Source: Coriobacteriia bacterium
Lineage (GTDB): Bacteria; Actinomycetota; Coriobacteriia; Coriobacteriales; Atopobiaceae
Reading direction: 5' to 3'
Assembly (NCBI GenBank): GCA_030530145.1
Contig: JAUMVN010000023.1
Span: forward strand, 1-36,817
DNA length: 36,817 bases
Shown: positions 14,187 to 32,090 of the stretch, in pieces
How the letters are laid out: every line of letters starts with the position of its first letter
Numbering within the stretch: position 1 is the first letter of the stretch
The notes under the pieces: model-generated
What the model saw: only the letters and a program-made list of their open reading frames with translations
Database searches by the model: none
Told to the model about the DNA's origin: nothing
Translations under genes and position numbers: made by a program

Positions 14187-14253
14187 CCGTCTCGGCAAGG
14201 ACCGCGCAAGACGCCCTCTGCCGGGGCGGCGCCTCCCGCGCGGGGACTAGCGC

Positions 14254-14259
14254 TATGAT
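14254..14259 (+). promoter_or_regulatory. Possible -10 box for holA
   Basis: TATGAT (14254-14259) lies 26 bases ahead of the holA start between comEC and holA. No good -35 box is visible at 17 bases, so this is tentative. Confidence 0.35.
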
Positions 14260-14284
14260 GTGTCGACGAAGAAAGGAACGACAC

Positions 14285-15250
14285 ATGGCAGCGACTCCCC
14301 AACTCCTCTGCGCATATCTCGCCGTCGGCCCCGACGAGCTCAAGAGAAAAGAGACCGTGGCGCGTCTCAAGGCCCGCGCGGCGGGGCCGTTCGAGGCATT
14401 CAACCTCGAGGAGATCGAGGCGGGCCCCGACCTCGAGCCGCTGCAGCTCACGACATCGCTGAACACCCTTCCCATGGGCGCGGACTGCAGGATCGTCGTC
14501 GTCCACGACGCGGACAAGCTCCCCAAGCCGGTGTCCGAGGCCATCGTCTCGTACCTGGCGAACCCCAACCCCGCCTGCACGCTCTGCCTCACGGCGACGA
14601 CCCTCGCCAAGTCGACGCGCCTGTACAAGGCGGTCGCGAAGGTCGGTCCCAAGGCGATCATCGACTGCTCCGCGAAGAAGGGCCGCGACCTCGTCCCCTA
14701 TATCCAGAAGCTCGCGCGCGCGCATAACCTCGCGATCTCGAGCGACGCCGCGAGCGAGCTGGCGGCCCGCGTGGGGGAGTCGTCGACGATGCTCGATACC
14801 CAGCTGGCGAGCCTCTCGGCCCTCCTGGGGGGCGGCGGCAACGTCGACCGCGGCTTCGTCGAGAAGAACGTCGCGCGCATCGCCGAGGTCAAGCCCTGGG
14901 AGTTCCTCGACCGCCTCTGCCAGCGCGACCTCGTCCGCAGCCTTCAGCTCCTGCGCCTCCTTGAGGGCAACTCCGCCATCGGGCTCGTCTCGCTCGTGAC
15001 CGGTCGCGTCCGCGAGCTCATCTGCGCGCAGAGCCTGTGCGCCCGCGGGGAGTCCGGGCGCATCTCCGCGGAGCTCAAGAAGCAGGATTGGCAGACACGC
15101 AACTACGCTCGATGGGCCGGCAATTTCCGCGCAGGCGAGCTCGAGCATCTGCTCGCCGCCTGCGCCGAGGCCGACTCCGCCCTCAAGTCCGGCGCCGACG
15201 AGTCCGCGACCCTCACGGGACTCGTGACACGTATGTGCGGCGCTGCTTAG
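14285..15250 (+). CDS. holA: DNA polymerase III delta subunit (clamp loader)
   Basis: The delta subunit opens the beta clamp within the clamp loader. The 321 residues show the N-terminal fold (LLCAYLAVGPDELKRKETVARL), the helical clamp-contacting region after SLNTLPMG, VVVHDADKLPK, and the C-terminal collar helices (EVKPWEFLDRLCQRD). It has no Walker A, as expected for delta. The ATG at 14285 is preceded by GAAAGGA; the frame is open upstream but only into the end of comEC. The comEC-holA order is widespread, and holA followed by rpsT on the opposite strand is also common. Confidence 0.92.
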   Translation: MAATPQLLCAYLAVGPDELKRKETVARLKARAAGPFEAFNLEEIEAGPDLEPLQLTTSLNTLPMGADCRIVVVHDADKLPKPVSEAIVSYLANPNPACTLCLTATTLAKSTRLYKAVAKVGPKAIIDCSAKKGRDLVPYIQKLARAHNLAISSDAASELAARVGESSTMLDTQLASLSALLGGGGNVDRGFVEKNVARIAEVKPWEFLDRLCQRDLVRSLQLLRLLEGNSAIGLVSLVTGRVRELICAQSLCARGESGRISAELKKQDWQTRNYARWAGNFRAGELEHLLAACAEADSALKSGADESATLTGLVTRMCGAA

Positions 15251-15251
15251 G

Positions 15252-15397
15252 CTTCTTTTTCTCCCCGGGCCGCCGCCGCGCCCTGTTTTGGGAATAGTTC
15301 CGCATGAGCCGAAGGCGACTTAATGTCGCCTTCGTGCGAAGAGGACTGTCCGTATTCCCAAAACAGGGCGCGGCGGCGGCCCGGGGAGAAAAAGAAG
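15252..15397. repeat. 45-bp perfect inverted repeat with an inner hairpin
   Basis: Positions 15252-15296 and 15353-15397 are exact reverse complements over 45 bases. Both arms run from CTTCTTTTTCTCCCC to CTGTTTTGGGAATA. The 56-base centre holds its own perfect 10-bp hairpin (CGAAGGCGAC 15310-15319 with GTCGCCTTCG 15325-15334, loop TTAAT). The element begins two bases after the holA stop, and its right end forms the U-tail of the rpsT terminator. It may be a bidirectional terminator or a MITE-like palindromic element. I see no coding capacity and no target-site duplication. Confidence 0.9.
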
Positions 15398-15428
15398 TCC
15401 CCCTCGGACAGCACTCCGAGGGGGACTT
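15389..15428 (-). terminator. Rho-independent terminator of rpsT
   Basis: AAGTCCCCCTCGGA (15395-15408) and TCCGAGGGGGACTT (15415-15428) form a perfect 14-bp stem with a six-base loop. On the minus strand it is followed by CTTTTTCT. It lies 23 bases beyond the rpsT stop. Confidence 0.95.
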
Positions 15429-15451: not shown

Positions 15452-15715
15452 CTACTTGATGGTGTTGACGAGCTTCTGGACGCCGGACTTGCGCTGGGCG
15501 GCCTGGTTCTTGTGGATGATGCCCTTGGAAGCGGCCTTGTCCAGGAGACGGCCGGCCTTGTTGGCGGCGACCTGAGCGGTCTCGACGTCATTGGCCTCGA
15601 CGGCGGTGCGGACGGCCTTGACGGCGGTCTTCAGCTCAGAGCGGACTGCGCGGTTGCGGACGCGAGCCTTCTCGGCGGTGATGATGCGCTTCTTCTGCGA
15701 CTTGATGTTAGCCAC
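15452..15715 (-). CDS. rpsT: 30S ribosomal protein S20
   Basis: This is the 87-residue, Lys/Arg/Ala-rich helical protein that binds the 5' domain of 16S rRNA. The N-terminus [20 protein letters not shown] and the C-terminal [14 protein letters not shown] are family hallmarks, and the length is standard. The start on the minus strand is GTG (15713-15715) with GAAAGGAA in front. It is monocistronic: its own terminator follows and lepA diverges from it upstream. Confidence 0.97.
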
Positions 15716-31807: not shown

Positions 31808-32090
31808 TGTAGGCGCCCTCCGTGCGGCTCGCCTTCGGTGTCGCCGTCAGCATGGTTTTTCGTTGCGCGCCACAAAACCTCGCCGACCGCGACGCAGCGG
31901 GGGCGAGTCGCCACAAATCTTGCCCTCGGCGACTCCAAACCGGCGCGGAGGGTGCTCTTCTGTGGCGAGAAGGGCTATTACGGTCGCCGGGGGCGCGCTT
32001 CTGTGGCGAGAAGGACCGTTACGGCCGCGGGGAACGTACTTTTGTGGCGAGAAGGGCCGGGTTCCCTGCGGATCAATCCGCTGCCCACAC
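31808..32090. other. Gene-free stretch upstream of maf
   Basis: No gene can be supported between maf and the ferredoxin terminator. The frames that are open here give Arg/Gly-rich translations and shift with the 41-base repeats, so they are not coding. The stretch holds the maf ribosome binding site, the repeat array described separately and an 8-bp hairpin (GAGTCGCC 31905-31912 with GGCGACTC 31928-31935). Confidence 0.5.
31868..32079. repeat. 41-bp-period repeat array in two orientations
   Basis: CTTCTGTGGCGAGAAGG starts at 31957 and 31998, and CTTTTGTGGCGAGAAGG at 32039: exact 41-base spacing. The same core inverted (CGCCACAAA) lies at 31868 and 31909, again 41 apart. The first two direct units also share the stretch after the core (TTACGG, then a GC-rich tail), while the third diverges after about 20 bases. 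The period is not a multiple of three, so it is not a protein repeat. Function unknown. Confidence 0.88.

Follow-up and report, generated by a model that had tools for sequence, protein, structure and literature searches.

A long palindrome between holA and rpsT is one copy of a dispersed family of structured hairpins with locus-specific stems in Coriobacteriales

Background

The convergent genes holA and rpsT of a Coriobacteriia bacterium are separated by a palindrome of unusual length, and this raises the question whether the palindrome is a transcription terminator, a piece of mobile DNA or a structure of some other kind. We analysed the window, that is, the whole 36,817-nt stretch of contig JAUMVN010000023.1 in which the locus lies, together with the rest of the genome and its relatives. 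A preliminary description of the window had reported a perfect 45-bp inverted repeat with a nested hairpin, had set it apart from ordinary terminators and had offered duplication by inversion, recent insertion and a MITE-like mobile palindrome as possible origins.

Anatomy of the palindrome

In a repeat search of the window the two arms were complementary at 45/45 positions (100%) with 56 nt between them, which bears out the repeat as it had been described and makes it the longest close inverted repeat of the window (Table 1). The nested 10-bp hairpin is also present, as CGAAGGCGAC-TTAAT-GTCGCCTTCG at 15310-15319 / 15325-15334, and the first A of the head (15296) doubles as the final base of the left arm. 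When folded as RNA the palindrome reaches -123 kcal/mol (z = -16.5), compared with -53 for shuffles, of which 0/200 match it. Chance is excluded by the length of the arms alone.

Table 1. Coordinates of the palindrome, its parts and the adjoining genes in the window
Feature	Position	Strand	Remarks
holA (DNA polymerase III delta), left gene	14237..15250	+	PF06144/PF21694; stop at 15250; start uncertain
Left arm, locus-specific stem	15252..15296	+	Begins 2 nt past the holA stop codon; outer CTTCTTTTT mirrors the rpsT terminator tail
Constant head F1	15296..15352	+	AGTTCCGCATGAGCC-hairpin-GTGCGAAGAGGACTGT-CCG; dispersed copies and covariation
Apical 10-bp hairpin of the head	15310..15334	+	Differs between copies by compensatory change
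Right arm, locus-specific stem	15353..15397	+	T-tail region of the rpsT terminator forms its outer end
rpsT intrinsic terminator stem-loop, separate	15395..15428	-	Tail CTTTTTCTCC extends into the right arm
rpsT (ribosomal protein S20), convergent right gene	15452..15715	-	PF01649; stop at 15452

The stem is followed by TCCCCC on the plus strand and by CCTAAGC on the minus strand, so that there is no U-tract directly after either arm, and a terminator scan at the locus found the separate rpsT terminator only and none formed by the palindrome stem. With its far longer stem and its structured, conserved head, the palindrome is indeed not an ordinary terminator, and the right arm does supply the tail of the rpsT terminator, as had been proposed. 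The position of the left arm directly after holA and its likeness to this tail suggest that the left arm is a copy of the right side, and the mirroring makes an inverted copying of the flanks plausible. The tags GTAG and CGTC and their complements are absent from 15252-15397, and an Rfam scan of the window at the gathering threshold returned a tRNA elsewhere as its sole hit. The element was absent from 29/29 of the relatives' holA-rpsT junctions examined, including that of a same-genus relative, and these junctions are too diverged to polarise the arms. Elsewhere in the window, positions 31939-32061 hold three tandem 41-bp units with CTTYTGTGGCGAGAAG, and a similar short GGCGAGAAG motif recurs intergenically in relatives.

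A dispersed head on private stems

A search of the same genome with the element found 13-14 further copies, in which the match covers essentially the centre only (query 52-105, window 15296-15349), and every one of these centres sits in a different near-perfect inverted repeat. In relatives, too, the centre is dispersed and each copy has arms of its own. When GTDB genomes were scanned with a pattern, more than 100 stretches came up, almost all of them in Coriobacteriia (Collinsella, Slackia, Adlercreutzia, Gordonibacter, Ellagibacter, Enorma and others), and the head, searched for as a covariance model (R1), has matches in 138/296 genomes and 49/125 genera of the class, those outside the three main families (f1, to which the present genome belongs, f2 and f10) being weak and possibly due to chance. 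Two Collinsella genomes carry 32 and 27 copies of the head, the 32 being found in G105, a genome in one contig of 2.3 Mb, and two copies often face outward within one intergenic region. Viral contigs, phages and Rfam yielded no match to the head, and searches of phage, plasmid and viral sequences gave only one Collinsella record, with 9 copies. This record (NZ_OY725717.1, 900 kb, Collinsella aerofaciens) is labelled 'plasmid 6', carries groES-groEL as well as the nine heads and looks like part of a chromosome. Related loci had only sub-threshold microRNA-hairpin matches in Rfam, and a literature search, with subscription papers outside its reach, found no published description of such palindromes in Coriobacteriia. 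The palindrome belongs to a dispersed family of structured hairpins found throughout the Coriobacteriales, and this family is apparently undescribed so far.

A locus-specific stem of at least 15 bp is present in 145/162 distinct copies (median 23, 90th percentile 36, maximum 44), and the maximum, under the scoring used, is the holA-rpsT copy, which thus has one of the longest stems. The head, of ~54-60 nt, combines a conserved internal loop, AGTTCCGCA..GAGC / AGGACTGT..YGAGC, with a variable apical hairpin, and it is carried on a private stem of 15-45 bp. The blocks AGTTC, GACTG and GAGC are invariant in a copy set that was partly selected by a pattern containing them. In the core 99.1% of cells are paired and 162 cells have changed on both sides, a level that 0/500 shuffles reached and that lies far above that of slid versions of the alignment. 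The arms are private to each locus and have no common terminal repeats; the composition of the left arm is non-random, its outer positions being G/C-rich with G about twice as frequent as C. Groups of related genomes show recurrent subtypes of the internal loop beside the stem. In three genomes the def locus has a shortened head, cgcgcAGTTTCGCAGCGCAGCGAGAATGTTTGAGCA, in a stem of its own, and the apical hairpin is therefore optional.

Evolution of the arms

At orthologous loci of Collinsella group G1 the head has stayed the same, and the arms differ by numerous paired substitutions and by a paired 4-nt insertion. At pcrA, in a comparison of 16 genomes, four positions of the stem show changes on both sides, and at a fifth the changes are one-sided only; the element is present there in 21/21 genomes of the close group, one with a broken left arm (L214), and absent from nine more distant genomes. 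At valS one genome (L320) has the same head and flanks with outer arms that are wholly different on both sides, and in another (L314) the head is gone and an 18-bp hairpin with two mismatches remains. The head has also been lost through a spacer inversion with mirrored arm sequence (L118), it is inverted at one orthologous site (L260/L294), and it has the opposite orientation at other orthologous loci too. Arm homogenisation and spacer inversion are established products of template switching (PMC8604942, PMC8794818), and the paired or replaced arms and the inverted heads seen here are footprints of that process. Such footprints at orthologous loci support the copying of arms through hairpin formation, and the stem is probably kept perfect by hairpin-templated DNA copying. 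The preliminary description had also reasoned that compensatory changes in a palindrome conserved only at this locus would speak for a terminator or RNA element. The changes that we find do favour an RNA element, but they are spread over many loci and not confined to one.

Between species, most copies occupy the same loci as fixed elements. A comparison of the Collinsella genomes G105 and G126 revealed no recent gain, the G105-only copies that were followed up being losses, variants or cases of missing flanks, and in a check for target-site duplications and empty sites the head-less sites look like losses or variants. The fixed positions and the lack of a recent gain do not support the MITE-like mobile palindrome that had been proposed.

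The probable RNA strand

When the mismatches in the arms are read on the head strand, G.U outnumbers A.C by 90 to 33 (two-sided binomial p = 3e-7, with related loci included in the counts and relatedness uncorrected), and one core pair alternates between G-U (43) and G-C (17). Both patterns are expected of a head strand that folds as RNA; on the opposite strand the same pairs would read A.C. Strand-biased mutation could partly be the source of the G.U bias. From these patterns we consider that the head strand is probably a functional RNA.

Placement relative to genes

Genes around the copies were called by a simple ORF method. The right-hand gene is on the minus strand in 95/145 copies, and in most cases 0-35 nt (median 17) separate its stop from the right arm; the stop of the left plus-strand gene lies at a median of 172 nt. 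In about a third of the copies the right gene is on the plus strand, and copies are also found shortly before genes, such as ~20 nt ahead of valS or upstream of groES. The right genes, to judge from their sequences, are diverse housekeeping genes. Since right-hand stops lie near the arm and other copies lie before genes, a gene boundary usually lies close by in the direction in which the head strand runs. There is no plus-strand gene to the left in 52/145 copies, and transcription coming in there would therefore be antisense noise; sigma-70-like promoters showed no enrichment to the left of the stem. At pcrA the element is followed by a terminator-like hairpin with a T-tail in pcrA sense. Beyond the element a canonical terminator was found for 9/71 element-bearing genes, against 68/286 other genes, a depletion too weak to establish that the element replaces the intrinsic terminator.

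Other heads in the same genomes

In an unbiased scan of sampled stretches, inverted repeats with arms of at least 20 bp occur at 6-8 per 100 kb in the present genome and in Collinsella and at 1.0-1.5 per 100 kb in two other samples; none was found in 180 kb of a class outgroup, 200 kb of a head-less family member or 50 kb of E. coli. A second head, F2 (gcgaatcgcg..AGCGAGCGAGCGMAGCGAGCGCtgagc), occurs at 12 places in the present genome (G000:C54:64405-72446 and other contigs; L419-L430). Most F2 copies sit in near-perfect, locus-specific stems of 25-43 bp, and the right side of F2 shares TGAGC[AG] with the F1 head. A third head, H2 (CTCCGCAGGACG-hairpin-CATGTCCGAGGA), is found on private stems in Collinsella (L349:8785-8903, L354:12189-12295, L357:16140-16264) and, to judge from the shared TCCGCA..TGTCCGAG, is possibly a distant relative of F1. 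As these other heads have equally private arms, the phenomenon is wider than one repeat family.

Repeats of a more familiar kind occur in the present genome as well. Dispersed palindromes with shared arms, AAGTTCGGAAGGCTTCCAAACTT, at four loci (L361, L370, L375, L377) are ordinary REP-like repeats, and a single RAYT-like Y1 transposase gene (L225, G000:C52:19877-20209), flanked by repeats GAGAGCTTTGGGGACGTTGGTT, marks a separate REP-like family. An origin of the element from a RAYT/REP system was considered and rejected, since the only Y1_Tnp of the genome has different repeats beside it.

Discussion

What has been computed, and what any explanation must accommodate, is the dispersal of the head, the locus-specific arms, their paired evolution, the bias of G.U to the head strand and the placement at gene boundaries. 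Our preferred explanation is a dispersed family of RNA hairpins in which a constant head on private, template-switched stems acts at transcription boundaries, and as a whole we regard it as evenly balanced between right and wrong. The head strand would be transcribed and act as RNA. Template switching during replication, seeded by the head hairpin, would make the arms and re-perfect them, and selection for a long GC-rich stem, or for pairing, may act on top of it. In the weakest step of this scheme the hairpin would halt or process transcription arriving from the 5' side of the head just before the next gene. The boundary would most often be the 3' end of a convergent gene, which here would mean holA read-through towards rpsT. 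A barrier or processing signal for transcription from the left seems to fit the placement best, with promoter and terminator analyses giving no confirmation, and a transcription-boundary RNA hairpin is our best guess at the role of the family.

A somewhat unlikely alternative is that the hairpin is selfish or neutral, a REP-like head spread by an unknown enzyme, with no selected function and with long arms that arise passively when template switching occurs at a strong DNA hairpin. This would account for the several head families in locus-specific arms in the same genomes, for the high frequency of inverted repeats with arms of at least 20 bp (~6-8 per 100 kb here against 0 in each of three comparison samples), for the footprints of spacer inversion and arm mirroring and for the orientation flips at some orthologous loci, but it sits poorly with the core covariation, the strand-biased G.U and the tight placement beside stop codons. 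The arms are also GC-rich and G-biased, they decay where the head is lost (valS), and orthologous loci keep the element between species, all of which argue against a merely passive structure.

The element could instead serve the right gene from the other strand, as a stem in its 3'-UTR with a role in transcription termination, in slowing ribosomes or in protecting the 3' end of the mRNA. Stems at 3' ends have had roles of this kind proposed in enterobacterial REPs. We consider this clearly unlikely: the G.U bias and the G-U/G-C core pair indicate the opposite strand, and the right gene is on the plus strand in about a third of copies, including the one shortly before valS, although the right-gene stop does fall within 0-35 nt of the arm in most minus-strand cases and the hairpin with T-tail after the pcrA element is in the pcrA sense.

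That a MITE or transposon-like palindrome moved into the holA-rpsT junction as a unit, as had been envisaged, is very unlikely and largely refuted. Dispersal of the head and its absence from this junction in a same-genus relative would agree with such a move; however, only the centre is dispersed, the arms differ at each locus without shared terminal repeats, other repeats flank the Y1 transposase of the genome, and two close Collinsella genomes show no recent gain. An assembly or sequencing artefact, for which the draft state of the assembly (57 contigs) might speak, has practically no probability left and is refuted for the family, since dozens of equivalent palindromes occur in independent genomes and 32 of them in a single contig.

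The RNA-hairpin explanation might be extended to a genome-wide Coriobacteriales system in which F1, short F1, H2 and F2 heads, all on private, re-perfected stems, would form a new class of RNA boundary or processing signals, although we think this wider proposal unlikely. Should the head strand prove to be a functional RNA, common gut bacteria would carry a class-wide RNA family, undescribed so far, where housekeeping genes end (valS, pcrA, def, pnp, tsaD, rpsT). Even apart from its function, the family offers dozens of natural loci per genome at which long stems can be watched as template switching creates them and keeps them perfect; the part of such switching in producing compensatory changes during RNA evolution is debated.

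Comparison with known systems

Like the REP, BIME and REPIN elements associated with TnpA-REP (RAYT), the hairpins are short dispersed intergenic palindromes, often at gene 3' ends and numerous in each genome. REP palindromes carry GTAG or CGTC tags, and their arms of 20-40 bp are conserved (PMC3733652); by comparison, the Coriobacteriales arms are locus-specific and longer, the head alone is conserved, and the RAYT-like gene is accompanied by other repeats. Intrinsic (bidirectional) terminators share the occurrence of a hairpin between convergent genes, but the palindrome differs from them in its much longer stem, its structured conserved head and what follows its arms, neither of which leads directly into a U-tract. 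Template-switch-maintained hairpins (PMC8794818, PMC8604942) show the same arm homogenisation, paired multi-base changes and spacer inversion; unlike the general mutation footprints described there, switching here appears to be repeated on one head family. The family also resembles candidate structured RNA motifs found by comparative genomics (e.g. Collinsella-1, RF01700; PMC2864571), which are likewise intergenic elements of Coriobacteria with conserved internal loops and covarying helices. The present family has no Rfam match at threshold and its basal stem is unusually long and near-perfect, and, as in structured RNAs, its helices covary beyond controls.
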